Numbered from the stretch's first letter, positions 26,691 through 63,676 are shown. The stretch is 64,000 bases of DNA from Acidobacteriaceae bacterium (GCA_030038195.1 JASHPJ010000030.1:1-64000); one strand, 5' to 3'. A program made the numbers and translations. The notes: generated by a model from the sequence alone, not told the origin.

Positions 26691-27021
26691 GGTTGCGAAC
26701 ATCCCCTTTCCGCTTTCCACACACGCATCCTTGCTCCACGAAGACCTACCGCCGCTTCACTGGGATATGCCGAAAACCTATTTTGCCGCGTCCACTCAAG
26801 TCAAGTTCCATTACTGAAGACCGGCAAGGACGGTTACTTACCGAAGGTTGCAGAACTGATTACTGGAAGTCGAGTCTTTCCCGCTTTTTACAGCACAAAA
26901 GTTCTCCCCTTCAGCGACAATCAGGGAGTCAACCTTTCCAACTTTGTTTTCCGATTCACCGCTCCGAGCTGCAGTGCCATTAGAAAGACCGGGACCGGGA
27001 TATAGAGCCCCCTTACCGCGA

Positions 27022-41779: not shown

Positions 41780-43213
41780 TTATGCATGTCTCACCAGTGT
41801 ATCGGCCTCGATCTCTTCCAGGCTCTTTCCCCTGGTCTCAAAAAGCCGCAGTGAAAGGTAGATTACGCCGGCCAGGCAGATGCCTGCATACGTCCAGAAG
41901 GTTCCCGCGGCTCCAAGCGCGGCGTTGAGCAACGGAAACGTGTAAGTGAGCAGAAAGCACGCTGACCAAAGCGCGGTTACGGCAATCGCCATGGAGCCGC
42001 TGCGCAAGCGGTTGGGAAAGATTTCCGCGATGACCACCCACGTAGCCGGCGCCAGTGACATGGCATAACAGGCGATGGCTGCGAGCACCAGCACGAGCAT
42101 GGGCATGCCGTGGACATGCAGGCGATAGAGTAATCCGAGCACCGCGTAGATGGATATGAGCCCATACAGGCCGGCCAGCAGCAGAAAGCGCCTGCCCACC
42201 CGGTCGATGGCGAAGAACGCCACAAAGGTGAAGGCCACATTCACCGCGCCTGTGACGACGATGTTGAACAGGATATCGGAGACCTGGTAGCCGGCGGCGG
42301 CAAAGATCTCCTGCGCATAATTGAAGATTACGTTGATGCCGCACCACTGTTGCAGAACGGCAAGCACGATGCCGAGCAGAAGCAGCTTTCGAAAGCTGCG
42401 CAGGCGAAGCTCACGCCAGATGCTCTGCGCGGGCTGCGCTGCGCCCACGGCTGCGAACTCGTTGAGCACCTGCTCGGCATAGCTGCGGCCGCCCAGCCGC
42501 TCGAGCACGCGCTGAGCCTGACCGACGCGGCCCTTGGTGGCCAGCCATCGGGGGCTCTCCGGCACGGCGAGCGAGGCCAGCAAAAACAGCGCGGAGGGAA
42601 TGGCAGTGACCGCAAACATCCAGCGCCAGCCGTACTGGCCATTCCACGAGAGCAGAATCTGCTGGGTTGAAGCGCCGACCGGCACCGGCCGTGCGATGAG
42701 CCAGTTGACCGCCTGCGCCAGCAGGATTCCAAAGACAATGGCGACCTGATTGAGCGAGACCAGCCGCCCACGCAGCCGCGGCGGCGCAATCTCCGCAATG
42801 TACATGGGCGAGATGCCCGAGGCGAGCCCGATGGCGATGCCTCCCAGAATTCTCCACGCCACAAATGCAGCAAACTGCGGCGCCAATCCGGTCCCCAGCG
42901 AGGAGACGGCAAAGGTGAACGCGGCCAGAGTCAGCAGTTTTTTTCTGCCAAAGCGGCTGCTCAGGCCTCCCGCGGAAGCGGCGCCGGCCAGGCAGCCGAT
43001 GAGCGCGCAGCTCATGGCCCAGCCCTGCAAAGAGGGCGAGCCGAGATGAAAGTAAACCTCGTAGAAAGGCTTTGCGCCGCCAATGACCACCCAGTCGTAT
43101 CCAAAGAGCAGGCCGCCCAGCGCGCCGGCCAGCGCCGCAGACCAGAGGTAGACGCCGCCTGCCTCGTCGCCACGGGCCAGCGTGCGTTCAGCAGCAGGCA
43201 TGGGCATCACCAT
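41780..43213 (-). CDS. Sugar porter family MFS transporter
   Basis: A 477-residue inner-membrane protein with 12 predicted helices. Sugar porter signatures are visible: GGLLFGYDWVVIGG, SRFGRKKL, GISPMYIAEIAPPRLRGRLVSLNQ, PESPRWLATKGR, QQWCGINVIFNYA and AEIFPNRLRSGSMAI. It imports a monosaccharide by proton symport, most likely the product of the adjacent GH31 enzyme. The start codon is four bases after the GH31 stop and has AGGTGA upstream, so translation is probably coupled. Confidence 0.94.
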   Translation of the reverse strand: MVMPMPAAERTLARGDEAGGVYLWSAALAGALGGLLFGYDWVVIGGAKPFYEVYFHLGSPSLQGWAMSCALIGCLAGAASAGGLSSRFGRKKLLTLAAFTFAVSSLGTGLAPQFAAFVAWRILGGIAIGLASGISPMYIAEIAPPRLRGRLVSLNQVAIVFGILLAQAVNWLIARPVPVGASTQQILLSWNGQYGWRWMFAVTAIPSALFLLASLAVPESPRWLATKGRVGQAQRVLERLGGRSYAEQVLNEFAAVGAAQPAQSIWRELRLRSFRKLLLLGIVLAVLQQWCGINVIFNYAQEIFAAAGYQVSDILFNIVVTGAVNVAFTFVAFFAIDRVGRRFLLLAGLYGLISIYAVLGLLYRLHVHGMPMLVLVLAAIACYAMSLAPATWVVIAEIFPNRLRSGSMAIAVTALWSACFLLTYTFPLLNAALGAAGTFWTYAGICLAGVIYLSLRLFETRGKSLEEIEADTLVRHA

Positions 43214-43217
43214 CCGG

Positions 43218-45614
43218 TCACCTCGGCTTTGATCCGATCACTTCCAATGCATACGGTCCGTTCGTGCTGCGAAACGGCGAGCCGGACTCCGTGAGCTTGC
43301 CAGCGCGGTTATCCCAGTGCAGATGAGTGAGCTGGTAGGCGCCGTGCTCGTAGGCATACGTGTTGCCGTCGTCGCGGTAGAGATCGAATTCCCCGTCGGC
43401 TCCAGAATAAATGCGCACACGCGCCACGGTCTGCTTTTCATTGGTGCTTTCTATCGCGGAGCCGAGCGGCAGAATCGATCCGGCGCGCACAAAGATGGGC
43501 AGGATATCGATGGGCGCGTCAACGGTGATCGTCTGACCGCCATGGAAGCGCTCGTTCGTCCAGAAGTTATACCAGTCCGTGCCCGCGGGCAGATAGACCG
43601 GTCGCGAGGTTCTTCCCTGCTCCACCACCGGCGCAATCAGCAGCGCCGGGCCGAACATGTACTCGTCGCCCAGATTGGCGACTTTCGGATCGTCTCCGAA
43701 GTCCATGAAGAGGCCGCGCATGAAGGGAGCGCCGGTCTGATGCGTGCCCCACGCGAGTGAATAGATATAGGGCATCAGTTGGTAACGAAGCCACAGATAT
43801 TTTTCCAGGATGGGCTCAGCCTGCTTGCCATAAGACCACACCTCGTTTTCAGGCCGGCTGCCATGGCTGCGGAATGTGGGCTGAAACGCGCCATACTCGA
43901 ACCAGCGCGTGTAGAGCTCGGGATAGTCATCGTAATGTCCAATGTTCGCGCGCGCGTCTGTCGGGTCAAGCAGCGGCGGACGCTCCGGCACGTGCACCTC
44001 GGGCAGGTACTGCCATCCGCCAATGTCCGTGCTCCAGTACGGCATGCCCGAGGCGGTAAAGTTGATGCCCGTGGACACCTGCCGCTTGAGCGTATCCCAG
44101 TTGCCGCTGATGTCGGACGACCAGAAGGTCGTGCCGTTGCGCTGCGCGCCAAGGTAGGAGTCGCGCGCCAGGATCAGCGCGCGCGTCTTCAGGTCGCGCC
44201 GGAAGCCGTCGTAAAGCGCCGCGGTGTGAAACAGCGGATAGACGTTGAAGAACTCAGTGCCCGGCCCGATGTAAAAGTAGCTGCCGTTCGGCGGCAGATC
44301 GGGCTCGGTTTCGTCGGCCCAGAATGCGTCAAAGCCCTTGCTCACCAGATTCTCTTTGATGACCTTCCAGTACCAGCGCGCCGCATCGGGATTCGTCGTA
44401 TCGATATCGGAGCCGGCGCGATCGTAGGGTAATCCGTTGGTTGGCGTTCCATCGGCCAGCTTCTCGAACCACCCATGCTCCAGGATGGTTGCGTAGTAGC
44501 GGTCTTCCGGAATGAACCGCGGCCACACGCTGATCATCACGTGGAAGTTCATCTTGTGGAGCTGCTCGTTCATGGCGACGGGATCGGGCCAGAACTTCGG
44601 GTCCATATCCATCTGGCCCATCCTGGTGTAGTAGAACCAGTCGATGACCAGGTCGTCGATGGGCAGATGACGCTCACGATAGCCCTTGGCCACATCCAAT
44701 ACCTGCTGCTGGCTGGTGTAGCGCTGTTTGCACTGAATGTAGCCATAGGCCGACTTGGGCAGCATGGGAACAGCACCGGTGAGAAGCCGGTATCCACTGT
44801 AGATTTCGTCATAGCTGCTTCCGGCAATCACGAAGAAAGAAACCCGCTGGCCAACGTCGGAGGTCCACTTCACCGAGTCGTTAAAGCCAAAAGCCACAGT
44901 GGTTGCCGAAGGATTGTCCCATACCAGCCCGTAGCCTTTGCTGGTGACGACAAACGGCACGCAGACGGTCTGTCCCCCGGGCGCGTTGTAGTCGTGCGCG
45001 CAGCGCAGTGCATGCCCGCGGCGGTCAAGAAAGCCCTGCTGGTTCTGCCCCAGCCCGTAGTAGTGTTCGTCTGGCGCCGAAGAAAACGTCGCGCCCACCT
45101 GATAGAAAGGTGGATCGCCGGGCCTGCGGTCATACAGGATGTCGGCGTTACCGTCTTTGTGGTTGGGCACAGACATCTGCCAGTCCTCGAGCGAGAGAAG
45201 CTGCCTGCCGTCGGCCGTCTTGATGCTGATACCCACCCAGGGAGTGGAGCCATTGAAGAACTTCGCAATGTCAGCCTGCGTGCCCGTGGGCGGCCGCGAC
45301 GGCGGCTGCGGAGCTACGGTCACCACCAGCCGCGAAGAGCGGAGCACGTCGCCGCTTGGCGAGCCTTCCACGCTCCAGCCGGCGGACTGGGGCGCGGCGA
45401 TGATGCCGTATCCGGGCGCGGCGAGCGCATCCTGTTTGAGCAGGCTCAGGCTCACACGTATGATGTTGGGCGCGTAGGGCTCAACGACAACCGTGGCGGA
45501 GCCGCGCTTGAGCTGCAGCTCCTGCGCTGCGCAAAGTCCCCCGAGAAGCCCGGCCACGGCCAGCCACCTTCCCATACGTGCAACCAGCATTGCCTGATGA
45601 CCGCTTATCGACAA
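43218..45614 (-). CDS. GH31 alpha-xylosidase/alpha-glucosidase-like enzyme, secreted
   Basis: A 798-residue enzyme with a signal peptide (MGRWLAVAGLLGGLCAAQE). N-terminal GH31 sandwich (YYGLGQNQQGFLDRRG). The barrel has LPIDDLVIDWFYY, the nucleophile in FDAFWADETEPD (Asp about 434) and the acid/base in FWSSDISGNW (Asp about 501). GMPYWSTDIGGW follows. The C-terminal sandwich carries PVYLPAGTDWYNFWTNERF. The barrel resembles DUF5110-type alpha-xylosidases, so xyloglucan-type substrates are plausible. The start is TTG 45614, six bases after GGAGG; the next in-frame ATG is eight codons on. A LacI-type operator lies upstream. Confidence 0.9.
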   Translation of the reverse strand: MSISGHQAMLVARMGRWLAVAGLLGGLCAAQELQLKRGSATVVVEPYAPNIIRVSLSLLKQDALAAPGYGIIAAPQSAGWSVEGSPSGDVLRSSRLVVTVAPQPPSRPPTGTQADIAKFFNGSTPWVGISIKTADGRQLLSLEDWQMSVPNHKDGNADILYDRRPGDPPFYQVGATFSSAPDEHYYGLGQNQQGFLDRRGHALRCAHDYNAPGGQTVCVPFVVTSKGYGLVWDNPSATTVAFGFNDSVKWTSDVGQRVSFFVIAGSSYDEIYSGYRLLTGAVPMLPKSAYGYIQCKQRYTSQQQVLDVAKGYRERHLPIDDLVIDWFYYTRMGQMDMDPKFWPDPVAMNEQLHKMNFHVMISVWPRFIPEDRYYATILEHGWFEKLADGTPTNGLPYDRAGSDIDTTNPDAARWYWKVIKENLVSKGFDAFWADETEPDLPPNGSYFYIGPGTEFFNVYPLFHTAALYDGFRRDLKTRALILARDSYLGAQRNGTTFWSSDISGNWDTLKRQVSTGINFTASGMPYWSTDIGGWQYLPEVHVPERPPLLDPTDARANIGHYDDYPELYTRWFEYGAFQPTFRSHGSRPENEVWSYGKQAEPILEKYLWLRYQLMPYIYSLAWGTHQTGAPFMRGLFMDFGDDPKVANLGDEYMFGPALLIAPVVEQGRTSRPVYLPAGTDWYNFWTNERFHGGQTITVDAPIDILPIFVRAGSILPLGSAIESTNEKQTVARVRIYSGADGEFDLYRDDGNTYAYEHGAYQLTHLHWDNRAGKLTESGSPFRSTNGPYALEVIGSKPR

Positions 45615-49989: not shown

Positions 49990-51615
49990 TCACTGGGCAT
50001 TTCGCAGCGCAGTGTTCATTTGCGGTTTACCGGAGATTGAAAATTGTAGCGTAGTCAATTCTTTGGCGCGCGCGACAACGGTCCCATCGCAGAGGACTTC
50101 GAGCCCACTACCGCTGTGGTACCGGGTACCATCGCGGTCATAGAGAATCGTCAGCAAGTGCCCATGGTACGGAACACCGTCCAAGGCAAAGTAATTCCAT
50201 TTCCCAGGTGGAATCAACGGGCGCAGCGTCAACTCATTCCCAGGCGCTGGCCGCAGCCCGATGAGGCCTGTAATAATAAGGTCCGCAAATCCGGAATGAT
50301 TGTAGTATCGGCCGCGGTTTGGAGGCGGCTGGCGGAGGGAAATCAGAATGTTTCGGGCGATCCATTGGCCGGTATCCGGATCGAGATCTTCATCGATCCA
50401 TGGAATCACTTTGCCATTCGGCAACCGGATGTGTTGGGAATAAGCATAAGTTTGCAGGAGACGAAAGTAATTTTCCCTGGTCATTACGCTTTGCCTTGGG
50501 CCGTCCAGGAGATTTGCAAGTGCTACTAATGTCTGCGTTGTGGCATACGGCCACGACGGCCCGTTCCAAAGGCATTCATGCCTCACTTTATAGTCAAACC
50601 TGGGATTACGCCGCTCGGCAGTCGTTGGTCCGTATCTGCCCCAAAAGCCCTCCGGATCAAAGAGGAGTTGCCAAGCCGAATCGTGCTGCACGGACGGTAA
50701 ATTAAAATACCAGGGGATATACCCTATCAGCTCCCGATCTCCAGTCCAGCCGTCGTCATCATGGCGCGCGACTGTCTCATAGAAGCCGTCGTGCGGATTC
50801 CAGAGTCGCTTCTCGACGAGTACGCGGAGATGAGCGGCTTTCACGCGATAGGCTTGCGCCACCTCTTCTTGGCCCGCCATTTCGGCGATCCGTGAGATGG
50901 CGATGGCATCGCCGTACATATAGCTGTTGATAGTCGGCCGGTAGCCATTCCCGCTGATGCTGTCTTCCATTCCATCGCGGTCATCGATCTGCCAAAACAG
51001 CCCATTGGAGTCCTGGTGTGTCCGCTCCCAAGCTTCGTAATTCTTTCCCAAGGCCGGCAGCAGGCTTATGGTAAAAGTCCGGTTCCCTGTTGCAAGAAAC
51101 AACTGGTACACAGAATCAGCGGCCCAGAAGCTATACCGCCGAGGTTCACCATCCGGCCCAAACCAGAAGCTTGTGTAGTCGTCAACGTACTCTGGATCGC
51201 GTAGCCAACGCGCTTCTCGTATGTGATGGCCTGCCGCCGCATCGATCATGTTGCGCTTTCCTGACCAGGGCACATCATCAAGAAATTCACTGATCAAATA
51301 TCCGTCGGGAGTTGGCATGATGTGTTTTTGGAAGGCATACCAGCGGAAGTAATAAATCCGCTCCATCTCCTTGTCGGGAATATCGAGCCAAGGAATATTA
51401 GCAACGAACCAGTCCCACGGCATAGGCGGCGCGGTTCCGAGCATCTGCCGCTCGTCATTGGCGAACTCCACAAAGTAATGCTGATAGTTGGCTGGTTGAA
51501 GCACAAGATGGTTAGCGGCCCGTTGCTGTCCGGCGCAGACCCTCCAGCTTGCTAGCAGAAGCACCAGAGCTACCACGCAATTCCAGCGAACAATAGAGCG
51601 CCCCCAAGTCATCAT
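49990..51615 (-). CDS. MGH1/GH63-like (alpha/alpha)6 glycoside hydrolase, secreted
   Basis: A 541-residue protein with a signal peptide (CVVALVLLLASWRVCAGQ). The toroid domain shows WLDIPDKEMERIYYFRWYAFQKHI, ISEFLDDVPWSGKRNMIDAAAGHHI, DRDGMEDSISGNGYRPTINSYMYGDA, HECLWNGPSWPYATTQT and a C-terminal small sandwich. These fit the mannosyl-oligosaccharide-glucosidase-like (GH63/MGH1) group. The start ATG overlaps the stop of the propeller gene (ATGA), so translation is coupled. The track ORF is 28 codons too long. Probable role: exo-acting removal of sugar from the glycan imported by the TonB receptor. Confidence 0.82.
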   Translation of the reverse strand: MMTWGRSIVRWNCVVALVLLLASWRVCAGQQRAANHLVLQPANYQHYFVEFANDERQMLGTAPPMPWDWFVANIPWLDIPDKEMERIYYFRWYAFQKHIMPTPDGYLISEFLDDVPWSGKRNMIDAAAGHHIREARWLRDPEYVDDYTSFWFGPDGEPRRYSFWAADSVYQLFLATGNRTFTISLLPALGKNYEAWERTHQDSNGLFWQIDDRDGMEDSISGNGYRPTINSYMYGDAIAISRIAEMAGQEEVAQAYRVKAAHLRVLVEKRLWNPHDGFYETVARHDDDGWTGDRELIGYIPWYFNLPSVQHDSAWQLLFDPEGFWGRYGPTTAERRNPRFDYKVRHECLWNGPSWPYATTQTLVALANLLDGPRQSVMTRENYFRLLQTYAYSQHIRLPNGKVIPWIDEDLDPDTGQWIARNILISLRQPPPNRGRYYNHSGFADLIITGLIGLRPAPGNELTLRPLIPPGKWNYFALDGVPYHGHLLTILYDRDGTRYHSGSGLEVLCDGTVVARAKELTTLQFSISGKPQMNTALRNAQ

Positions 51616-52592
51616 GATTCCGCCACGAATCCCAAGCTCTCCTCTGAGCGCGTCACCAGCCCAATCTGTTCCAGATGGTTGTTTCGGCCGTTGTACCAAA
51701 GCTTCCAGCCACCATTGGAGTAGACCGCGAAGGGCTTATAACACGCGTCGGCATCCCAACCACCGGGGGTGGGCCGTACGATTGGGTTTTCCGCATGACG
51801 AACCCAGCCTGTGATCCCATCCTTTGACCGCGCCAGCCCGATCTGCGCGTGATCGATGTCGCGGAAACCGATATAAAAGGCGTAATACCAACCTTTCCAG
51901 AGCAATACCTGGGCGGCAGCAACGCGGTTCTTTTCCCACTCAAATCGAGGATCGGGCGTGAGAACTGGATTGGCCGCGTACTTATCCCATCTCAGGCCGT
52001 CCTTGCTTGTCGCGTAGCCAATGGCGTTCGGTTCGTATTGCTGGCCACCGGAATACCACATCTTCCATAAGCGATCCGCCGCATCCCACATCACGTGCGG
52101 GCACATTACTGCAACATCTTCCCATGGTGCTTCGGAGACAAGAACCGGCTTCTCTGATTGGCGCACCCAGGCGATTCCGTCGGCGCTCGTCGCATAACCG
52201 ATTGCGGACCTCCCCTTCGCCTGGCCTGTATACCACATGTGATATCCATCCTTGCGGTGTACTACGATGGGGCGATTGATATCGTCTTCCCACCCGGTCT
52301 CGGTGCGAGGTCCGAGGACGATCTCCGGTGGCTTCCAATGAATTCCGTTAATACTTTCCGTAATGGCAACACTCTGCTTGGGGCGCCAGGAAACCCACAT
52401 CCTGAATTTTCCTAATTCCCGCAGTACGCAGATGTCGAAACACGTTCCATATTGCCCACCAAGAACCGGGTTCCCTTCATACTTTACCCACCCGGCATAC
52501 TTTCCTGGATTCGTTGCACTGAACGCGTAGGTCAAGTAAGACTCCGTAGTCAGGTATCCCAGAGCCAGCATCAAATCTCTTCTTGTCAACAT
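51612..52592 (-). CDS. Five-bladed beta-propeller glycoside hydrolase-like protein, exported
   Basis: A 326-residue protein with a Tat-like leader (MLTRRDLMLALGYL). Repeating blade motifs resemble GH43/GH117/GH130-type propellers: KYEGNPVLG, IGYATSADGIAWVRQ, WKMWYSGG, IGYATSKDGLRWDKY, IGLARSKDGITGWVR and WKLWYNGRNNHLEQIG. Acidic residues are present in the expected places (DDINRPIV, WEDVAVMCPHV), but I cannot assign the catalytic set. The gene is followed by an overlapping MGH1-like gene. It lies downstream of the TonB receptor. Confidence 0.8.
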   Translation of the reverse strand: MLTRRDLMLALGYLTTESYLTYAFSATNPGKYAGWVKYEGNPVLGGQYGTCFDICVLRELGKFRMWVSWRPKQSVAITESINGIHWKPPEIVLGPRTETGWEDDINRPIVVHRKDGYHMWYTGQAKGRSAIGYATSADGIAWVRQSEKPVLVSEAPWEDVAVMCPHVMWDAADRLWKMWYSGGQQYEPNAIGYATSKDGLRWDKYAANPVLTPDPRFEWEKNRVAAAQVLLWKGWYYAFYIGFRDIDHAQIGLARSKDGITGWVRHAENPIVRPTPGGWDADACYKPFAVYSNGGWKLWYNGRNNHLEQIGLVTRSEESLGFVAES

Positions 52593-52758: not shown

Positions 52759-55700
52759 TCAGAAAATCGCGTGGAACGACAATTGAATACTTCTTGGAGC
52801 ATTGGCGGTGCTGATAATGCCAAAGCCCTGTGTGTTCGGTCCTACTGTATTGTTGTAGCCTGGGCTGTTCAGCACAGTGTGATTCAACGCGTTAAATGCC
52901 TCGGCATGGAAATTAAGCTTTACCGACTCCCAAATTCCGAAATCCTTGTCGAGACTTGCATTGAAGTCTTCAATACCCGAAGCAGGCCCCTTCCAGACAC
53001 CAGCCGTAGCATTGCCAAGGAACATCCGCTGTCCCACCCCAGGTAATGTGGTCGGTACACCACTCACAAGCGCCTGATCCGCTCTAACGAATTTGCTCGG
53101 ATCAAGCCAGCTCACACCGATCATCGATCCGCCCGACATGACGACCTGTTTACGATTAGAAAGCAGCGCGCCGCCTCCGGTATAGTTCGCATAACATCCG
53201 GCCGAACTGAAGTTGAACTCGTTGCAGTTGTAATCTGCCACACTCCCGTAGCCGCCGGTGCTTGCCGTTCCGGTCCCACCGATCGCCCAACCATCAAAAA
53301 TTTTGTCGGCTAACGTGTGCTGGCGCAGGAATAAGGGAAGCCTGTAACGGAACGCCGCGGTCATCTGGTGCACCGTACCTGGGCTGTAGTAATCCAGTGC
53401 GCAGTCTGCCAGATATCGGCAGCCCTGTTGAGCCGAGGTACTGCTGTACGTATAAGTTCCCAGCAGTGTTAGACCATACGAGTACCTCTTGTTAACCTCC
53501 ACCTGCAGGGAGTTATACCAGGAGTTGTAATCGGAGTAAAAGGTGGTGATTCCGTTGAACCCGGCCGGATAGTATGGCTCGCGTGACAGAATGTTCGCGG
53601 CGTCATTCGTGCTCCCTCCAGGGACAAAGATGGGCCAGTTCTGGTTGTGCGTCTCGAATAAATGAGTTCCGTGGGTTGCAACCCACGCCGCGGAAAAGAC
53701 GTATGTATTGATCGGCTCGATTTCAAATTCCAGATTGAACTTGTCATACAAGCCGTTATTGAAATTCTTCGCGATTGCCTGAGTGGAAAGGGGATTCGGA
53801 AAGACCAACGTAGCGGCTGCCGAAGATCCTGCTGTTGGTGCCGAAAACGGGAATGGAACGCTGCCGTATTGTGCGTAAGGCTGAGAGAGATCAAGTCCCG
53901 GTCCTTGAGTGGGGTAATAGTCGACGCCGAAAGGCGCTGCTGTCGTATAGTTGTTGAAATTCAACAGATACTCATAATCCGTGTAGAGTCCGTAACCGCC
54001 TTTGAGTGCAGCCTTGTGATTTCCCAGAAGGTCCCACGCGAACGAAAACCGGGGTCCCACGTTGTAGGCGTTGCCGGATAAGTTCGCCGGGATTCCACGA
54101 TCTCCAACTGTAACCAGCCCGACCGGCGCTGTTGGAAACACCGTCGATGCCTGACCTGGACGGAAAGTTACAAAACGGTTCTTCTCTTCTGTGATTCCAA
54201 AGTATGGTTGGAGGCGCGCGCCGATCATGACTGTCAATCGCGACTTCAGCTTCACCGTATCCTGAATGTACGCTTCCCGCGCCGGATAGTTCACGATAAG
54301 ATTCTGCGTGCTGTTTTGAGAAAAACTGGCGCCGAATTGGCCAAGAGGCCCACCATTCAGCAGCATATCCGCAATGCCATTGCCTGTACCGCCATAGACA
54401 CTGTCGGAGTCCTGAAACGAGACGTTGCCTCCCGCGCCCCAGGTCTGATTAAAGACCTCATGGTAGTTGCGGAATTCCAGGCCGGCTTTGATGGTGTGGC
54501 GCCCCTTAGTCCAGGTGAAATTGTCCGTGATATCCCAGGTGTGTTGCGTCATCGGATTTACGTACCCGTTGTAAATGCCCATGCCCATACTGCGTGGAGT
54601 AGAGATTTGCTGAACATTCGGTGCCAGATGATCACCTACCGAGTTAATTCCCGTGTTTGATGGATTCACTATCCCTGTACAAGGCGCGCATGTGTTCGTA
54701 ACTGAAATCTCGGTCTGGGTAATGCCCAAAACGAAGTTGTTCAGCATCGAAGGCGTGATGGTGTAGGTATCATTCACGGCCCAGACCTTCGTCTGGTCGG
54801 GTTCGCCCCAGGTTGCCTGGGGATTGGGATACTGAGTTGCCCACGATGCTTCCCCGAATTCGTCGTACATATCCTGGAAAGTCGGGTTGTCGTTGTACCA
54901 CCAGAGGCTGCCGAAGACCCGGTTCTTGCTGCCGAGATTCTCGTCGATGCGCACCATCCAAGTCTGAATGAGCGTTTCGTAATTCGGATTCCATGTAAAC
55001 GTGTCGTTTCCGCTGGTTGGCTCGGGCATGATTGCTGTGCCGCCGGAAGAGTTGAGGGCTTGCCCCATGGGGCCGAAGTCCGATGCAGGAATGATCGGCA
55101 TCGGCGCGCCATTGACAATTGGAACCCCGTCTGGCGAATTGGTGAAATCGCCGCTGCGTTCGGCGTCAGTAATGGTCTGTCCGCTCGTTGTCGAATTCTT
55201 CGACGTATTGGTGCGCTCATATGAGACGAAGAAGAATGTCCGGTTCTTGCCGTTGTAGAGTTTAGGCAGCCATACTGGACCGCCTACATTGCCGCCGTAC
55301 CACTCCTGGTGAAATGGCTGGCGCGGAATGCCCTGGAAGTTGTTTGACCAGGAGTTCGCGTTCCATGCGCCATTTTGCAAATAGGTCCAGAACTGCCCGT
55401 GAAAGTCGTTGGTGCCGTTTTTCAGCGTGGCCTCAATCTGTCCGCCGGCGCCACGGGCCACCGAGGCGTCAGGAAGCGCCGAAGACACGCTAAATTCGGC
55501 GGTGTTCTCTGACTGTGGGAAGTTGGCTGCTGCAGAGCCATGCATGTAATCATTCATGGCTGCGCCGTCGATTTCGTAATTGTTGGTCAGTTGCGAAACG
55601 CCGTTGAAGCTGGTCACTGGGATGTAGTAACTGGCGCCGGTTCCAGCCGCTGTTGCACCCGGCATCAACACTTCCATTGATTCGCGTGGGTCGCGCCCTT

Positions 55701-56211
55701 CAACCGGAATTGCTTCCATGAGATCGGGTTCAATTGTGGTCAGATTGTTTGCCGTTTCTGTATCCACCATGGCGGACGACCCCGAGACTGTGATGGTCTG
55801 AGTCTCCGTCCCCACTTGCAGTGTCACAGGAAGTGTGGCGAACCCTCCCGCATGAAGGATGACCTCGTTCGCCACAAAAGTCTTAAAACCAGAGGCTGTG
55901 CAAGTGACCGTGTACGTCCCGGCGGCAATTGAAACAAATTGGTAGAACCCGGCGCCATCGCTCGTTACTTTTGCCTCAATACCGGTGTTCACGTTGTGCG
56001 CGACGATCGCTGCATTCGGTATCACCGCGCCACTCGGGTCCGTGACCGTGCCCGCGAGCGATGCCGAAATGTCAACTTGGGCCCATACCGGCCTTCCGCA
56101 GAGCGCGATGCTGACGACAGAGAAGATGACCGCCAGCATGTATGCAAAGCGGTAAAGGTGGTGCCGCTTTCCCGACTTGCTCAAATCTGTGCGTTTTTCC
56201 TGAAAATGCAT
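52759..56211 (-). CDS. TonB-dependent receptor, Oar-like
   Basis: A 1150-residue outer-membrane protein. A signal peptide (MLAVIFSVVSIALCGRPVWAQ) is followed by a carboxypeptidase-regulatory-like domain (LAGTVTDPSGAVIPNAAIVAHN, GFYQFVSIAAGTYTVTCTASGF). A plug (NNYEIDGAAMNDYMHGSA) and a long beta-barrel rich in aromatic strands end with the usual C-terminal aromatic residue (SFHAIF). Acidobacteria carry many such receptors for glycan or peptide uptake. It precedes the two hydrolase genes and follows the sensor module. LacI-type half sites lie upstream at 56332-56371. Confidence 0.92.
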   Translation of the reverse strand: MHFQEKRTDLSKSGKRHHLYRFAYMLAVIFSVVSIALCGRPVWAQVDISASLAGTVTDPSGAVIPNAAIVAHNVNTGIEAKVTSDGAGFYQFVSIAAGTYTVTCTASGFKTFVANEVILHAGGFATLPVTLQVGTETQTITVSGSSAMVDTETANNLTTIEPDLMEAIPVEGRDPRESMEVLMPGATAAGTGASYYIPVTSFNGVSQLTNNYEIDGAAMNDYMHGSAAANFPQSENTAEFSVSSALPDASVARGAGGQIEATLKNGTNDFHGQFWTYLQNGAWNANSWSNNFQGIPRQPFHQEWYGGNVGGPVWLPKLYNGKNRTFFFVSYERTNTSKNSTTSGQTITDAERSGDFTNSPDGVPIVNGAPMPIIPASDFGPMGQALNSSGGTAIMPEPTSGNDTFTWNPNYETLIQTWMVRIDENLGSKNRVFGSLWWYNDNPTFQDMYDEFGEASWATQYPNPQATWGEPDQTKVWAVNDTYTITPSMLNNFVLGITQTEISVTNTCAPCTGIVNPSNTGINSVGDHLAPNVQQISTPRSMGMGIYNGYVNPMTQHTWDITDNFTWTKGRHTIKAGLEFRNYHEVFNQTWGAGGNVSFQDSDSVYGGTGNGIADMLLNGGPLGQFGASFSQNSTQNLIVNYPAREAYIQDTVKLKSRLTVMIGARLQPYFGITEEKNRFVTFRPGQASTVFPTAPVGLVTVGDRGIPANLSGNAYNVGPRFSFAWDLLGNHKAALKGGYGLYTDYEYLLNFNNYTTAAPFGVDYYPTQGPGLDLSQPYAQYGSVPFPFSAPTAGSSAAATLVFPNPLSTQAIAKNFNNGLYDKFNLEFEIEPINTYVFSAAWVATHGTHLFETHNQNWPIFVPGGSTNDAANILSREPYYPAGFNGITTFYSDYNSWYNSLQVEVNKRYSYGLTLLGTYTYSSTSAQQGCRYLADCALDYYSPGTVHQMTAAFRYRLPLFLRQHTLADKIFDGWAIGGTGTASTGGYGSVADYNCNEFNFSSAGCYANYTGGGALLSNRKQVVMSGGSMIGVSWLDPSKFVRADQALVSGVPTTLPGVGQRMFLGNATAGVWKGPASGIEDFNASLDKDFGIWESVKLNFHAEAFNALNHTVLNSPGYNNTVGPNTQGFGIISTANAPRSIQLSFHAIF

Positions 56212-56371: not shown

Positions 56372-56492
56372 TTTCATCTATTCACTTGTCATGATGGCAA
56401 TGGACCAATTTGCAATGATGCATTTGCACTATGCCAGGAGAGTCGGGGATGGTGCAGGCCGCCAGACGGGTGCGAACGGCGAATGTCTGCAG

Positions 56493-57959
56493 CTATTGGG
56501 CGCTTGACCTGGGGTGATGAACGAGGTCCTGAAGGCGTTCCCAATAAACCGATATGCCTGTCCTGAGTGCCGTGATGAGCCGTCGTCCCGGATTCCCGTG
56601 CAGATAGACCAGCGCATGAATGCGCGTGCCTCGACCGGTCTCGCTTACGACGCTGAATTCTCCGCGCAGGGCTCGGATTTTCTCACTCATACCAGCCAGA
56701 CCGTAGCCTTTGACCTGTGTGGTTTTGGGATCAAATCCGCTACCATCGTCGGTTACTGTCAGGCAAACACTGGAAGGTCTATATTCCAGTTCAACATCGA
56801 GGGCAGAAGGATTGCCATGGCGTAACGCATTGGCAATAGCTTCCTGTGCTATACGGTACAAGGCATCGGTGGTGGAGAGGGAAAGACTGCTGGCCGGCCC
56901 ACTGGTTACGAAATGTACTTGAAGCTTCGATCCAGCCGTACTCCTTTCCAGCGCGTCACGAATCGCCGAAGGCAGATCTGCGCCTTCAACCAATTGCTGA
57001 GGACGCAGCATCATGATGCTGCGGTGCGCCTCAGAGTGGCTGTGGCGCACCATGTCCAGGGCCATATCAAGATGGCGTGCCAGCAGAGTGTTCGTATTGG
57101 GGACGACTTTGCGCGCCGCCTGAATCTGAAATGAGAGACCGGCAAAGCTCTGCGCCAGCGTGTCGTGCAATTCGCCTCCCAGTCTCGCCCGCTCGGCCAT
57201 GATTGCCTTATACTTGGACTTCAACATCTGGATCAGGATCAGGTGTCCTGCGATTACCAGGAGCGCAAGTAGAAATCCGATTTCCAGAAGATGCTTTGGA
57301 CTCCACCAGGGCGGGCCAGAAATTACTGTCACATCCTGTGCGGATCGCAGCAAGATGGCGAACCCGCCGCGGTAGAGCGTATCCCGCGGCTGGAGAGAAC
57401 ACACACCGCGAAGGCGGAGAATCGATCCGCTTTGAATTTCGGGAAGAGAGGAGCCGCCGGGTCCTGAATTAAGTTTGGCCAGGAAGACCTGCTGGCCGCT
57501 TTTCAGCTTCAGCCAGGTTTCCCGACCACTGCTCTCTCTGTCCACGAACCGCCCGGTTACCTCGATCAGGAGACCGGCGAATTTACCTAGCGCCGCCTCG
57601 TCCGGAGTCACCGAAAGGGGCGGTATCGGCGAGCCGTGCCAAAGAAGATCAACTTTGCTATCACGAAGGACCAGCCCATCTTCCGTATCGTCGGCGTGTC
57701 CCGTAACGAGCAGTTGGTCTCCGATTCTCAGACCCTGCGTGGAGAGTCCATCGACTTCCGCTCCACCCGTTGAATCCTGAATGTACGATGGATTTCCGTT
57801 TAGCGTAAGAGTCGCTTGTACCATAACTAGGGAGGCGGGCAATTGCGGTTGCGAATGGATGGCAGCAATCGATGCGTAGGTCGCGGGGGCCTGCGCGCTT
57901 GCGGCGGCTGTAGCGAGCCCCATAAGAATCACAGCGCCATATCGTATCGCTGGCTTCAT
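56493..57959 (-). CDS. Membrane histidine kinase, HisKA_3 (NarX/LiaS type)
   Basis: A 488-residue kinase. After a signal peptide (YGAVILMGLATAAASAQ) a periplasmic region contains an OB-fold-like stretch (GGAEVDGLSTQGLRIGDQLLVTG). One membrane helix follows (LLEIGFLLALLVIAGHLILI). The HisKA_3 domain has the phospho-acceptor in LGGELHDTLAQSF (His 265). HATPase_c shows EAIANALRHGNP, DDGSGFDP and GYGLAGMSEKI. GGGAAG precedes the chosen ATG 57959; ATG 57983 is possible. It is the last gene of the regulator, binding-protein, lectin-like and kinase series. Confidence 0.9.
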   Translation of the reverse strand: MKPAIRYGAVILMGLATAAASAQAPATYASIAAIHSQPQLPASLVMVQATLTLNGNPSYIQDSTGGAEVDGLSTQGLRIGDQLLVTGHADDTEDGLVLRDSKVDLLWHGSPIPPLSVTPDEAALGKFAGLLIEVTGRFVDRESSGRETWLKLKSGQQVFLAKLNSGPGGSSLPEIQSGSILRLRGVCSLQPRDTLYRGGFAILLRSAQDVTVISGPPWWSPKHLLEIGFLLALLVIAGHLILIQMLKSKYKAIMAERARLGGELHDTLAQSFAGLSFQIQAARKVVPNTNTLLARHLDMALDMVRHSHSEAHRSIMMLRPQQLVEGADLPSAIRDALERSTAGSKLQVHFVTSGPASSLSLSTTDALYRIAQEAIANALRHGNPSALDVELEYRPSSVCLTVTDDGSGFDPKTTQVKGYGLAGMSEKIRALRGEFSVVSETGRGTRIHALVYLHGNPGRRLITALRTGISVYWERLQDLVHHPRSSAQ

Positions 57960-57991
57960 GTCGCTTCCCGGCAAACTCCTCATCCCCCGGC

Positions 57992-58639
57992 TCACTTCAA
58001 CATGGTCACCCGGACATTCTTCCATTGCCCGCCCGAATCGTAAGACCGCAGCCCGATCTTCCCCTTTACAGGGCATTGCGGCACAAAGAGGTTGAGGCTT
58101 ACTTTCTCACTCTGTCCCTGTTGTTGAGCGAGAAGGCCGATGTGGCAGCCTCTCAACTCCATCCGAATGTGATACCAACAGTTGGGCAGGATAGGATTGG
58201 GCATAGGTTTTGCCGCCATCTCGCTCCATCCATGATCCGCTACTCCCAACACCAAAGCCCCATCGCGCACTCGGAGTCCGCCGTATATCCCGCTGTACGC
58301 ATCGACTCCAGGCTCCGCGTCCGACACTCTGGCAATCACTCCGGCATCACCGGTGCTGTTAAGCGAGATATCCGCATCAAGCGCGTAATCGGTCCAGTAT
58401 GGCGAACCTGTGATCAATTTCGCCCCGCGCTCATTGGATTCATTGACCATTACCCCGTCACGAACGTTCCAGTTCCCATCGTAGGCCACCCATTGCGAAT
58501 CGTCGCCAACTGCAAAGCTGTCGTGAAACGGCAGTCCACGCAAGGGCGAGCGCAGAACGTAAAGTACGCCCGCTGTTGCCGAAGACCCTACCAAGGCCGC
58601 AGCAAGGAAGAGAACCAGGTCTCGAATGATCGGCCGCAT
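57992..58639 (-). CDS. Membrane-anchored concanavalin-like (DUF1080/LamG-type) protein
   Basis: A 215-residue protein with one N-terminal membrane helix (LVLFLAAALVGSSATAGVLYVL) and a jelly-roll-like periplasmic domain: FHDSFAVGDDSQWVAYDGNWNVRDGVMVNES, YWTDYALDADI, GDAGVIARVSDAEPG, YHIRMELRG and KGKIGLRSYDSGGQWKNVRV. These are typical of DUF1080/concanavalin folds that bind carbohydrate. No catalytic residues are evident, so a binding or sensing role is more likely than hydrolysis. It lies between the sugar-binding protein and the kinase. Confidence 0.82.
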   Translation of the reverse strand: MRPIIRDLVLFLAAALVGSSATAGVLYVLRSPLRGLPFHDSFAVGDDSQWVAYDGNWNVRDGVMVNESNERGAKLITGSPYWTDYALDADISLNSTGDAGVIARVSDAEPGVDAYSGIYGGLRVRDGALVLGVADHGWSEMAAKPMPNPILPNCWYHIRMELRGCHIGLLAQQQGQSEKVSLNLFVPQCPVKGKIGLRSYDSGGQWKNVRVTMLK

Positions 58640-58711
58640 AAGCGCTCAATCCTCCATTCCAATCCAGACCATCAGTTGGCACCACGGCACGAAGCAGTCG
58701 GCTTGAAAATC

Positions 58712-59671
58712 TTAACGGCCGAACGCCCACACCACATTCTCGCGCGTAAGAAGCACGGCCTCCACGTGCTCCGGTGGCGGAAGAGGATGTTTTCGAATTC
58801 CGGCCAGCGCCGCTTCTACGGCGAGGTATCCAACCTGGTATCCATCCGTGGCCACTAGCGAATCCAGCTTGCCTTGCTGGAGGTTAAGAGCGAGAAAGAG
58901 ATCGCGGTCGGAACCTACCAGAGCGACTGAGTGCGGCGCATTCGAGGCCTCTAGTGCTAGCATCGCGCCCTGTGTGGCATCTGCAGTGAGCGCAAAGATA
59001 GCCTTCAAACCCGGAAACGTGTTCACGAGCTCCCGTGTGCTCTGCTCCGCTTCAGGTATCTGCACAGAGCCCGGAGATTGGGCGACAATTTCGATCCCCG
59101 GATAGGCGGCGATGGCCCGCATGAAGCTCCGTGCACGTAGCAAGCTTTCCGGCGTACCGCGGCCCAAGCCCACTATCGCTACTTCTCCCTTACCTCCCGT
59201 CAGTTGGGCGATTCTTTCGGCGGCAAGTCTGCCGAACTGCGCCTGATCAGGCGTGACCGAAGTCAGATAAGGACCGGTCGGCATTGGAGCCTCGGTCTGA
59301 ACCACGACAATGGGAATCTTGCGATTGGTCAGGTCGTCGATCATCGTGACTATACCCCACGGATTTGAAGGCCCCAGAATGAGCGCCTTTGCCCCTCTGT
59401 GTACTGCTGCCTCGGCGATCTCGATCTGACGGTCCAGATCGTCTTCCCTGGTCGGAGCGTTCCAGTAGATTCGATATCCCACGCTCCGCGCCGCAGCTTG
59501 AGCGCCGCGACGCATGTCTTCTGTGAAATTGGTGCCGCTGGTGCGCGGAATGAATGCAATCACCGGCGGGGATGCGGGTTGTCTCCAGGAAAGGAACAGC
59601 ATGGCCAGGCATCCGAAAGCAGCGCCCAATAAAGCGGCGCAGAGCGGCCGCACAATTTGTTGGATCCTCAT
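58712..59671 (-). CDS. Orphan sugar-type periplasmic binding protein, membrane anchored
   Basis: A 319-residue Peripla_BP_4-type protein with an N-terminal hydrophobic anchor (PLCAALLGAAFGCLAMLFLSW). The fold shows VIAFIPRTSGTNFTEDMRRGAQAAA, GAKALILGPSNPWGI, KIPIVVVQTEAP, FGRLAAERIAQ, KAIFALTADATQGAMLAL and ATDGYQVGYLAVEAAL, as in ribose/galactose/xylose binders. No permease or ATPase gene is nearby. The genes around it encode a response regulator and a kinase, so I infer a sensory subunit that presents the bound sugar to the kinase. Confidence 0.87.
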   Translation of the reverse strand: MRIQQIVRPLCAALLGAAFGCLAMLFLSWRQPASPPVIAFIPRTSGTNFTEDMRRGAQAAARSVGYRIYWNAPTREDDLDRQIEIAEAAVHRGAKALILGPSNPWGIVTMIDDLTNRKIPIVVVQTEAPMPTGPYLTSVTPDQAQFGRLAAERIAQLTGGKGEVAIVGLGRGTPESLLRARSFMRAIAAYPGIEIVAQSPGSVQIPEAEQSTRELVNTFPGLKAIFALTADATQGAMLALEASNAPHSVALVGSDRDLFLALNLQQGKLDSLVATDGYQVGYLAVEAALAGIRKHPLPPPEHVEAVLLTRENVVWAFGR

Positions 59672-59719
59672 TATTATGCGAAATGCTCCATCTGATCTCT
59701 AGTCCTGTTACCGGTCGCC

Positions 59720-60355
59720 TCATTCATTTAGTTTGACCAATCCGCGGCGGATGCCAATCGCTACCGCCTCGGTACGATCCTTCGCGCCCAATTTCGAAAG
59801 CAGGCTGATAACATGATTCCTGGCGGTGATATCGCTGATGAAGAGCCTCTTGGCAATCTCTTTGTTGGTAAGACCCTGCACTAGTAATTCGAGAACCTCC
59901 ACCTCGCGCGTGCTCAGCGAGGAGCGTCCAATCCGTTCAGCCAGTCGCATTGCCACGGCATTGGGAATTCTGCGAATTCCCTGGCTCACAGCGTGAATCG
60001 CCTCGATGACCTCATCCTGAGAAGCAGTCTTGAGCAAATATCCAAGAGCACCCGCCTCGATGGCATTGAAAATGTCTTCATCGAGCTGATAGTTCGTCAA
60101 TACGAGTATTTTGCTTGCTGGCTGTGAAGCGCGTAGCGCGGAAATTACTTCTACGCCGCCAATATCCGGCATCCTTAAATCCAGAAGCACCACGTCGGGA
60201 TTCAACTTTTCCGTCAGGAGAATCCCCTCTTTCCCGCAGGAGGCCATCCCAACAATGGTGATTCCTGATTCACTGTCAAGCATGCTGTGCAAGCCCCGGC
60301 GCACCACTGGATGATCATCAACAACAAGCACTCGAATGCATTCCGGCTCTGCCAT
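59720..60355 (-). CDS. NarL/FixJ-family response regulator
   Basis: A 211-residue regulator: receiver domain with phospho-acceptor Asp 59 in VVLLDLRMPD, Lys in YLLKTASQD, then a LuxR-type helix-turn-helix (LSTREVEVLELLVQGLTNKEIAKRLFISDITARNHVISLLSKL). It is the first gene of the four-gene sensory series and the natural partner of the HisKA_3 kinase. The likely targets are the TonB receptor and hydrolase genes downstream. Confidence 0.94.
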   Translation of the reverse strand: MAEPECIRVLVVDDHPVVRRGLHSMLDSESGITIVGMASCGKEGILLTEKLNPDVVLLDLRMPDIGGVEVISALRASQPASKILVLTNYQLDEDIFNAIEAGALGYLLKTASQDEVIEAIHAVSQGIRRIPNAVAMRLAERIGRSSLSTREVEVLELLVQGLTNKEIAKRLFISDITARNHVISLLSKLGAKDRTEAVAIGIRRGLVKLNE

Positions 60356-60632
60356 TCCATCCTCTTCAGCTCAGGCTCAATTCTTCCAGAAACTTCAAAC
60401 AACTGGTAAGTTGGCGCGCGTCCTCTTCCATCTATGGCATTTCCAGCACATGCCGCATTCTTTCTTCTGAAGGCATGCGCACGTCTGGCGTTCGTCCAGC
60501 AATGACAATGATGACGATTCTCTGTGCCGTCATCGGGGTTGTCAACGGCTCGCTGTTATCTTGACTGGACCGGACAATCAGCGCAACCGCGGGCGCGGCT
60601 CAAAACGTTGCCGCAGATAAAATGTGGTGCGA

Positions 60633-60656
60633 ATGCACCATTCAGCGATGGTGCAT
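60633..60656. promoter_or_regulatory. Inverted repeat, candidate operator
   Basis: ATGCACCAT and ATGGTGCAT are perfect nine-base arms around TCAGCG. The site lies between the divergent response regulator and TPR genes and just upstream of the TPR promoter. Confidence 0.45.
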
Positions 60657-60753: not shown

Positions 60754-61992
60754 ATGTGTGCGTGGGCAGGTCCTGCTGATTCAGGCGGATCGACGAAGAC
60801 CGTGACGGCAAGGCGTGCTGGCTTGTTTCTCGCTGTCATTCTCGCTGGAACAGCATTCGGGGCGCAGCCTGCTTATGCACAGTCACCTTCCGCTGGTCCC
60901 CCTGATATCACCCAGCTATCACATCAGGCGGAAACCGATCTTCACGAGCAGAGGCCGGCACAGGCAGTCGAAAAGTATCAAAAGATCCTCGCAGCCGAAC
61001 CGGATAACATCGGTGCTCTCTCCAATTTGGGACTCGCGTACTACATGCAGAAGAATTTTCCGTCGGCGGCAAAGGAGTTCGACCTAGCTCTTCGCCACAA
61101 CCCAAATCTCTGGAACATTGTTGCCCTTTGCGGTCTGTCCGAGGCTCAATCTGGACAGGATAAGAGTGCGCGCGCACATCTTGAGGCTGCATTTCAGCAT
61201 GTAGCAGAACCGTCGCTGCGCTTGGCAGTGGGTAAGCAACTGTTCAGCAGTGAATTCGAGACGGGCGATTTGAACCAAGCAGCCGAAATCGTTGTGCAAT
61301 TGCAGCAACTCGATCCGAAGAATATTGATATTATGTACGCCGCGCATCAGGTGTACTCTCTGTTGGCGGATAGAGCCTTCCTTTCTGTCGCACGCCTGCA
61401 GCCGGATTCTGCGCGAATGTTCCAACTGTGGGGCGACCGCATGACGGAATTGGGAGATACGGAGGGAGCCATTGTGGCCTATCGCATGGCCATTCAGCGC
61501 GATCCCAATCTCTCCAGCGTTCACGTTGCGCTTGCCGATGCACTCAACAACTCTCGCTCCGCGACCGAGAGAGCGCAGGCCGAAAGCGAATACCAAAAGG
61601 CGCTGGCCATCGATCCCCAGGACGAGAGAGCCGAATGCAAGCTCGGAGATATTGAGTTTCAGCGCTCCAATCACGAAGGCGCCACGCATCACTATAGGCG
61701 CGCCCTTCAGCTTCGGCCGGACGACCCTGACGCCAACGAAGGCTTGGGTATGGTTCTTTTCTCTTCGCGTTCGTACGCAGAGGCCAGGGTGTATCTGGCT
61801 CGCGCAGTACAACTGGACCCGACCAATGCAACGGACTATTACCACTTGAGCCAGGCAAGCAGAGAAACAGGAGATTTGGATGAGGCAAAGCGTGAAATGA
61901 GTGAATTCCTGAAGTTGAAAGCTGAAAGTGAGAATCTCAAGCGCAGCTTCGGCGAGTTGCCGCTTGAACGCGCTCGACAGAACACTCCATAG
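60754..61992 (+). CDS. Secreted tetratricopeptide repeat protein
   Basis: A 412-residue protein with a signal peptide (RRAGLFLAVILAGTAFGAQPAYAQ). About eight TPR units follow (AEPDNIGALSNLGLAYYMQKNFPSAAKEFDLAL, LRPDDPDANEGLGMVLFSSRSYAEARVYLARAV). TPR arrays mediate protein contacts; no enzyme domain is present. The start may be ATG 60754 or GTG 60802, the latter closer to the signal peptide. It is divergent from the sensory module and may belong functionally to it, but this is not shown. Confidence 0.85.
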   Translation: MCAWAGPADSGGSTKTVTARRAGLFLAVILAGTAFGAQPAYAQSPSAGPPDITQLSHQAETDLHEQRPAQAVEKYQKILAAEPDNIGALSNLGLAYYMQKNFPSAAKEFDLALRHNPNLWNIVALCGLSEAQSGQDKSARAHLEAAFQHVAEPSLRLAVGKQLFSSEFETGDLNQAAEIVVQLQQLDPKNIDIMYAAHQVYSLLADRAFLSVARLQPDSARMFQLWGDRMTELGDTEGAIVAYRMAIQRDPNLSSVHVALADALNNSRSATERAQAESEYQKALAIDPQDERAECKLGDIEFQRSNHEGATHHYRRALQLRPDDPDANEGLGMVLFSSRSYAEARVYLARAVQLDPTNATDYYHLSQASRETGDLDEAKREMSEFLKLKAESENLKRSFGELPLERARQNTP

Positions 61993-62323: not shown

Positions 62324-63676
62324 CTACCATTCCTTCAATGCGAGTTGTCGATTAACTTCCAGACGGAAATGCCCTCGGCCCATGTGGGCGAGACGGACAA
62401 AGTCGCAGCGGTCCTGCAAGCGGCGGCGCAGCAGTATCAAGCGGGCTTCCAGGTTGTCTTTGAAGTCAGGCAATTGCAATGTTGCGTCCAACCGGATTTC
62501 CTTATTTGAAAAGTCCACTCGTCCGCTCTGGGCGTAGCTTTGGACGAGCTTCCAGAAGATACGCCCGGCGATTCCTTTGATGAGATAGGCGTCATCGATA
62601 AAGATGCTGTCGTCGGCCTTGTAGTGCTTGACCGTCGAGACTGCCGTTGGCACCACCGTGCTCGGCTGGCGCGGGATCTCCTGCAATTTGATACTTTCTA
62701 AGCGCTCTTGCAAGGCCATGGCGGCAGCCATTTGGCGCGCGGCAATGCGCACCACGCGCTCATCGTCGGAGAGAAATCGGCCAGTGGTCGCACTCTGTAG
62801 ACACAGAATCGCAAGCAGCCGGTCCTGCGCCACCAAGGGTACAACAAGCTGGCTTTGCACCTGCGGCAGGCCCGGCAAAGCGATCTGCCGTTCAAGCAGG
62901 CTGTCATCACCGCCCCGCTCCACTGCGGATCGCACGGTATTCGAGTACAGGACGTCGCGGCTGAAGTTCGTAGTTCGCACCACTTCACGGCGCTGGGCTG
63001 CAATACCGAGGATTCCTTCACCGATCCACACCTCCGACCCGATTCCGGACTCGCCAAAGCCGTGGCTTCCGAGCGTGAACAGCCGCTTACCATCCTCGTC
63101 CGGGATCATCAAAAACGAGTGGTCGTAGCCAAAGAGTGCGGATAAGCTGTCGAGCGAGACGTTGATTACGGATTCGAGCCCAGCGCAGGCGCTGAGCCGG
63201 TCAGTGAACTCTTCGATCTGGGGAAGGAAATCGACCTTCGGTAGCGCTTCTCCGCCAGCTTCCGCGTTGATCGGCCGGCAGTCGAGGACTTCAAAGACGT
63301 CTACGCCACGCAATTTGAATATGTGGCTCATTCCAGTCTGTGACGCCACGGCGTCGAGCCGCGTTTTCATCTTCTCGAAGACCGGTCCTTCGGTTTCGGT
63401 CCGTTCGTACCGCAGGTCCAGGCGGTATTGATGCAAGTTGGCCGGCGAAACCACGACTACCTGGACAAACGGGTTCTGTCCGATGTTCTGGCGCGTCTTG
63501 TTGAAGAACTGGTAAGACAGGCCGACGTGGCGGCTATCGATACAGTGGACAACGGAGAGATTTGTGATGTTCGGCGTCCCGTCAGCCGAACACGTGCTGA
63601 TGGACGAAGGAATGATTCCCTCAAAGCACACGGCAATGCTCTCGAGCGTAACCGCGAGGAGCGAGGCCGTGGTCAT
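62324..63676 (-). CDS. PNPOx-like and GAF domain protein
   Basis: A 450-residue cytoplasmic protein. The first 140 or so residues resemble the pyridoxamine-5-phosphate-oxidase-like split barrel (GIIPSSISTCSADGTPNITNLSVVHCID, NKTRQNIGQNPFVQVVVV). A GAF domain follows (INVSLDSLSALFGYDHSFLMIPDED, GIGSEVWIGEGILGIAAQRREVVRTTNFSRD, LVVPLVAQDRLLAILCLQS). The C-terminal 110 residues include KADDSIFIDDAYLIKGIAGRIFWKLV, which is helical and unassigned. A redox or flavin-linked sensor is possible. The start overlaps the stop of the upstream gene by four bases. Confidence 0.83.
   Translation of the reverse strand: MTTASLLAVTLESIAVCFEGIIPSSISTCSADGTPNITNLSVVHCIDSRHVGLSYQFFNKTRQNIGQNPFVQVVVVSPANLHQYRLDLRYERTETEGPVFEKMKTRLDAVASQTGMSHIFKLRGVDVFEVLDCRPINAEAGGEALPKVDFLPQIEEFTDRLSACAGLESVINVSLDSLSALFGYDHSFLMIPDEDGKRLFTLGSHGFGESGIGSEVWIGEGILGIAAQRREVVRTTNFSRDVLYSNTVRSAVERGGDDSLLERQIALPGLPQVQSQLVVPLVAQDRLLAILCLQSATTGRFLSDDERVVRIAARQMAAAMALQERLESIKLQEIPRQPSTVVPTAVSTVKHYKADDSIFIDDAYLIKGIAGRIFWKLVQSYAQSGRVDFSNKEIRLDATLQLPDFKDNLEARLILLRRRLQDRCDFVRLAHMGRGHFRLEVNRQLALKEW

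Follow-up and report, generated by a model that had tools for sequence, protein, structure and literature searches.

A stretch of 64,000 nucleotides from an Acidobacteriaceae bacterium (GCA_030038195.1 JASHPJ010000030.1:1-64000, hereafter the window) holds four adjacent genes that probably form a three-component sugar sensor dependent on a solute-binding protein (SBP), with the sensor spread over three polypeptides and driving an operon for a TonB-dependent receptor (TBDR). The genes encode a response regulator (RR), a Peripla_BP_4 sugar-binding protein (BP), an anchored concanavalin-like protein (CON) and a HisKA_3 kinase (HK). The neighbourhood is conserved in relatives, with about a hundred related gene sets of the same design, in which CON is most often fused to the kinase; no permease of an ATP-binding cassette (ABC) transporter matching BP is found in the genome, which is 4.17 Mb long and 97.5% complete; and a palindrome is enriched before the receptor and BP genes. 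A preliminary description of the window had singled out the four genes; it did not foresee the TonB receptor linked to them or the palindrome that the loci share.

All four open reading frames were verified on the minus strand, in one direction, and a Pfam search agreed with the assignments first given. With the HK start taken at 57959, the gaps RR-BP-CON-HK are 48, 72 and 32 bases, within the 30-75 bases reported earlier. The longest HK frame starts at 58076 and overlaps CON, so that 57959, the start that follows CON and opens a signal-like sequence, is probably the one used. The membrane anchors described earlier on BP and CON are seen as hydrophobic N-termini, and the separate periplasmic region described for HK corresponds to its residues 29-222, resembling an oligonucleotide/oligosaccharide-binding (OB) fold. 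The module, its presumed target and the two operator-like sites are as follows.

59720-60355, minus strand: RR, NarL/LuxR-type response regulator of 211 aa, first gene of the module (Response_reg 1e-27, GerE 1.4e-18)
58712-59671, minus strand: BP, orphan membrane-anchored sugar-binding protein of 319 aa with invariant C21 (Peripla_BP_4 PF13407, 1.7e-43)
57992-58639, minus strand: CON, membrane-anchored, CBM66-like concanavalin fold (3keto-disac_hyd PF06439, 3e-8)
56493-57959, minus strand: HK, with signal/anchor, OB-like periplasmic region, membrane helix and catalytic core (HisKA_3 5.1e-12, HATPase_c 2.6e-12); probable start codon
57294-57875, minus strand: OB-like periplasmic region of HK, residues 29-222 (match to profile A5, 6.8e-61)
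52759-56211, minus strand: TBDR (CarboxypepD_reg and OMP_b-brl_4; PF25183 1.3e-135), presumed target operon
56416-56431, no strand assigned: operator-like palindrome TAGTGCAAATGCATCA (as read on the minus strand) before TBDR, matching TRRTGCNNNNGCAYYA, and the general pattern with 2 mismatches
60625-60640, no strand assigned: operator-like palindrome TGGTGCGAATGCACCA, separating RR from a divergent tetratricopeptide repeat (TPR) gene and matching the clade pattern TRRTGCNNNNGCAYYA

We searched 150 genomes of the family with BP and obtained matches in 50. In 33 of the loci fetched, BP adjoins a kinase with an N-terminal CON (fused CON-OB-HK), nearly always together with RR; adding the sister locus G033, where CON is a gene of its own, makes 34 CON loci among those fetched. 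A scan with the CON alignment alone returned 67 named loci, which overlap those of the BP search, so that the two counts are not additive; nearly all belong to Acidobacteriaceae or to Acidobacteriota bins. BP is adjacent in every one of the 67, as the preliminary description had asked of relatives, an association well beyond coincidence. In 57/67 an RR lies no more than 2.5 kb away, contig ends truncating most of the remainder, and in 56/67 there is a TBDR within 5 kb. Across the phylum CON was found in 13 of 396 genomes, all in the family of the window, a count that may be low, few candidates per genome having been scored. The genome of the window has a second, fused copy of the module (L041:3371-10990, contig C114), made of RR, fused CON-OB-HK, BP and a divergent TBDR, and several genomes carry more than one copy. 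One module (L146) lies in a bin labelled Rhodanobacteraceae, and was probably misbinned or horizontally moved.

The fold of CON agrees with the concanavalin-like carbohydrate reader proposed at the outset. Its profile matched only CBM66 in the PDB (8e-6), and the top match of the fold search was 4b1m, the CBM66 module of a levanase (TM 0.81 on target), which supports a carbohydrate-binding type of fold for the predicted structure. Since CON is fused to HK beside BP in 33 loci, we consider it a sensor domain of the kinase. It could also be an enzyme, a 3-keto-disaccharide hydrolase making or removing the signal sugar beside the kinase. This is suggested by the PF06439 family match (3e-8), but is quite improbable, because in sequence and fold CON is nearest to a binding module, its closest solved relative, and because most relatives have it covalently built into the kinase sensor. 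CBM66 members bind the ends of fructans and, in one case, xanthan; their ligands are terminal sugars such as fructoside or pyruvylated mannose, and specificity varies within the family (PMC11002231).

Another explanation is that CON serves only for structure or docking, as an anchor or adaptor for BP, and passes on the state of BP, the sole ligand input. We regard this as a serious possibility, though less likely than not. Where the OB-like region is present CON always accompanies BP, and sensors can reuse lectin-like folds without a ligand. However, six CON kinases (L150-L155) have neither the OB-like region nor BP. They nest among fused forms having both, and usually come with a convergent RR and a TBDR, as a CON-only version of the sensor, so that CON can apparently act as a sensor alone. 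A purely docking CON also fits poorly with its resemblance to CBM66 and with its presence, twice, behind the catalytic domain of a GH54 arabinofuranosidase (L153:6822-9188) encoded beside a CON kinase.

The four-part set of the preliminary description is real in the window, but it is a minority form. In most of the 67 named loci CON is the N-terminal domain of the kinase, and the separate gene is restricted to a minority branch that includes the window. Three genes thus make up the usual system, and CON is best regarded as belonging to the sensor of the kinase. Ten kinases were found with a separate CON gene: in the window and G033 it is co-directional, and in the eight others it lies between BP and HK in inverted orientation; the distance rule overlooked one more such kinase, L147, the eleventh. 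The inverted arrangement occurs in L142-L147 and L157-L160. Locus L148 was rejected as a further split locus: it has an in-frame stop within the fused gene.

That the fused form is far commoner might indicate that a fused kinase recently broke up or decayed into the four-gene form, in which CON is no longer functional. We consider this unlikely. The CON of the window is 64% identical to that of G033 and both keep the family-invariant columns, the truly broken copy L148 looks different, and in the kinase tree the split kinases form one supported group (98/87), which branches before the fused forms with a weak outgroup. Taken at face value, this branching order would make the separate-gene arrangement of the window older than the fused form. 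We do not rely on it for the direction of the change, since the outgroup came down to three alignable kinases, one of which nests among the fused forms.

The N-terminus of BP is hydrophobic, and its cysteine C21 is invariant across the aligned relatives, most of which have a lipobox; that of the window BP is imperfect (AFGC). Peripla_BP_4 proteins are usually subunits of ABC transport systems, with BPD_transp_2 permeases as their partner class, and the best PDB matches of BP are annotated in this way. BP might therefore be a transport protein for an ABC permease encoded elsewhere, its position beside the kinase being incidental. This is very improbable and largely refuted. A complete ABC transporter for BP had been named beforehand as the observation that would speak against an orphan protein, but the genome, 97.5% complete, yielded no ribose/xylose-type BPD_transp_2 permease (PF02653), a family that turned up in 12 of 14 control genomes under the same search. 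Moreover, adjacency to CON is universal, and a sugar transporter of the major facilitator superfamily (MFS) lies nearby together with a GH31 enzyme, so that the sugar could cross the inner membrane without the help of an ABC transporter. The remaining Peripla_BP_4 matches inspected in the genome are DNA-binding regulators, except for the BP of the second module (contig C114).

Sensory proteins are among the close solved relatives of BP. Its profile matched XylFII (5e-40; structures 5xsj, 5xss and 5xsd are among its nearest solved relatives) and the sensor 2x7x of a hybrid two-component system (HTCS; 2e-23), and its predicted model (pLDDT 90) matched AraP (6sw4) at 1.8 Å, with GanP (6gq0) also among the best. 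Kinship with XylFII, the missing PF02653 and the constant adjacency in relatives found through CON all support the earlier idea of an orphan protein serving the kinase. BP matches of 650-700 aa (L078-L082) had been candidates for fusions of BP to a kinase; by eye they look like a membrane permease and a Peripla_BP_4 domain fused in one chain, and would belong to a different transport group. Another protein (L002:1264-2400) is a regulator in which a Peripla_BP_4 domain is fused to an N-terminal helix-turn-helix that by eye resembles IclR.

HK retains its H box (ELHDTLAQ) and N box. Its periplasmic residues 29-222 have no Pfam match, and the OB-like assignment comes from the pattern of strands and from weak PDB matches to YgiW (0.024) and RPA14 (0.5). 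In the usual form, kinases are ordered as CON, linker, OB-like region, membrane helix, HisKA_3 and HATPase_c, and the periplasmic CON-OB part is predicted (mean pLDDT 89) as two domains of good confidence, with a linker of low confidence between them. We rejected the OB-like region as a general marker of BP, many OB kinases having neither BP nor CON; the association holds only within CON kinases.

We then turn to the DNA before the TBDR and BP genes. A count of dyads in these gaps, with no motif presupposed, gave repeats of the type GTNCA-N2-TGNAC far above shuffles. The 16-base palindrome TAGTNCANNTGNACTA, with at most 2 mismatches, occurs in 32 of 40 gaps before TBDR or BP, compared with 0.9% in shuffles, and among 15 perfect copies present in 1.08 Mb, 14 lie inside those gaps (13.5 kb). 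Of 23 held-out loci, whose BP was outside the training set, about 16 have the palindrome before BP or TBDR; shuffles have it at a rate of about 2% per region. In the genome of the window the sole perfect copy belongs to the second module (C114), where it lies between BP and TBDR, and 12 other genomes contain three perfect copies, two of them beside a module. The window has the general pattern with 2 mismatches at 56416-56431, in the gap between HK and TBDR. A variant, TRRTGCNNNNGCAYYA, has two matches in the 64-kb window (0.09 expected), before TBDR and before RR, and exactly two at the sister locus G033, at the same two placements (0.01 expected). Genome-wide, TRRTGCNNNNGCAYYA is not commoner than a control pattern, so only its placement counts.

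The presumed target operon follows HK after a gap of 281 bases, with TBDR succeeded by two further genes.

51612-52592, minus strand: GH130-like protein behind TBDR (PF04041 5e-9)
49990-51699, minus strand: MGH1-like glycoside hydrolase with a GH65-type C-terminal domain (PF22422 9e-79); longest open reading frame, true start probably nearer 51610

The neighbours of fused modules in other loci (L083-L109) often include GH127 (10 proteins), GH51-type C-terminal domains (5) or TPR proteins (about 16). GH127 and GH51 arabinosidases abound near fused loci, but the window has GH130-like and MGH1-like proteins, and we therefore do not claim arabinose as the sugar of the window.

From these observations we propose the following mechanism. 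The anchored BP would bind a small sugar in the periplasm, and the sugar-bound form would dock on the periplasmic part of the kinase, that is the OB-like region, CON or both, CON supplying glycan recognition or a docking surface. HK would then phosphorylate the NarL-type RR, which would bind the 16-base palindrome before the TBDR operon and before its own operon; this binding is expected to activate, rather than repress, the uptake and breakdown of that glycan. Tentatively, and with somewhat less than even confidence, we further suggest that one kinase and, via the palindrome, the TBDR operon are gated by two readers together, a CBM66-like domain for glycan ends and an orphan SBP for the sugar released, in an undescribed scheme that would be family-wide in Acidobacteriaceae, the window keeping a separate-gene form ancestral to the fused one.

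Several observations weigh against the proposed circuit. No TBDR lies within 5 kb in 11 of the 67 loci, some of which are on short contigs, and no clear copy of the palindrome was found in the clade with inverted CON (L142-L147). The variant TRRTGCNNNNGCAYYA was composed after the sequences of the window and G033 had been seen, although its copy before TBDR also matches, with 2 mismatches, the general pattern, which was found independently. Many kinases without BP or CON have the OB-like region, which is thus not a dedicated dock for BP. Finally, the kinases that lack both the OB-like region and BP form one clade, so that the two absences possibly reflect one event.

The module shares with SBP-type three-component systems a conserved SBP gene beside kinase and regulator genes, an SBP without an ABC importer, and an anchored SBP. 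One close case is XylFII-LytS-YesN of Clostridium beijerinckii, which senses D-xylose, likewise with a membrane-anchored Peripla_BP_4-type sugar protein as kinase co-sensor. It has a LytS-class kinase and the AraC-type regulator YesN, where the present module has a HisKA_3/HATPase_c kinase and a Response_reg-GerE regulator, and it has neither CON nor an OB-like region. XylFII-LytS-YesN controls an ABC transporter, whereas the module here adjoins a TonB receptor. AraPST and GanPST of Geobacillus stearothermophilus include AraP and GanP, the fold matches of BP mentioned above, which we take to be the sugar-binding parts of sensor-kinase-regulator systems; they have ABC-transporter targets, no CON domain, and a kinase and regulator of another class. 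LuxP-LuxQ, cited in the preliminary description, reportedly also uses a binding protein as kinase co-sensor. In the HTCS of Bacteroides (BT1754), a periplasmic-binding-protein fold likewise senses for outer-membrane glycan import (SusC/D), but sensor, kinase, receiver and DNA-binding domain form one chain, instead of separate BP, CON/HK and RR genes with a CBM66-like part. CuaDSR of Ruminiclostridium cellulolyticum, which responds to cellobiose, likewise has a lipoprotein SBP gene beside kinase and regulator genes; its SBP binds the extracellular domain of the kinase, and the system controls glycan uptake genes (PMC10384115). It differs in being Gram-positive, with a family-1 SBP of 410 aa, an AraC-type regulator, an ABC transporter as target and no CBM-like component (PMC10384115). 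SBP genes beside their kinases are in fact common (PMC11113362). CBM66 members, such as the levanase module 4b1m and a xanthanase module (PMC11002231), to which CON has a fold match and a weak sequence match, are known as modules of enzymes; CON is instead a kinase sensor domain or a partner protein.

Elsewhere in the window, the TPR protein gene divergent from RR occupies 60754-61992. The sugar MFS transporter (41783-43213) and the GH31 enzyme (region 41783-45614) lie about 7-14 kb past TBDR, and adjoin a DUF5107-TPR protein (38270-41731). We also noted a protein whose pyridoxamine-phosphate-oxidase-like domain precedes a GAF domain (62324-63676), and one of 1669 aa that combines a pro-kumamolisin activation domain with Big_3_5 Ig-like repeats (26944-31950).

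In the open-access literature (subscription journals lying mostly outside it), we found no description of this acidobacterial form, nor of acidobacterial glycan sensing switching on TonB receptors, and the module looks like an undescribed way of switching on sugar uptake. It would tie an SBP co-sensor to a TonB receptor instead of an ABC transporter, and employ a CBM-type fold as sensor domain of a kinase. Acidobacteria are abundant in soil and degrade plant polymers, and the module offers one concrete, recurrent circuit whose sensor, regulator, target and DNA site are each open to separate tests. Being present in more than one copy in several genomes, it may help to assign sugars to acidobacterial uptake loci.

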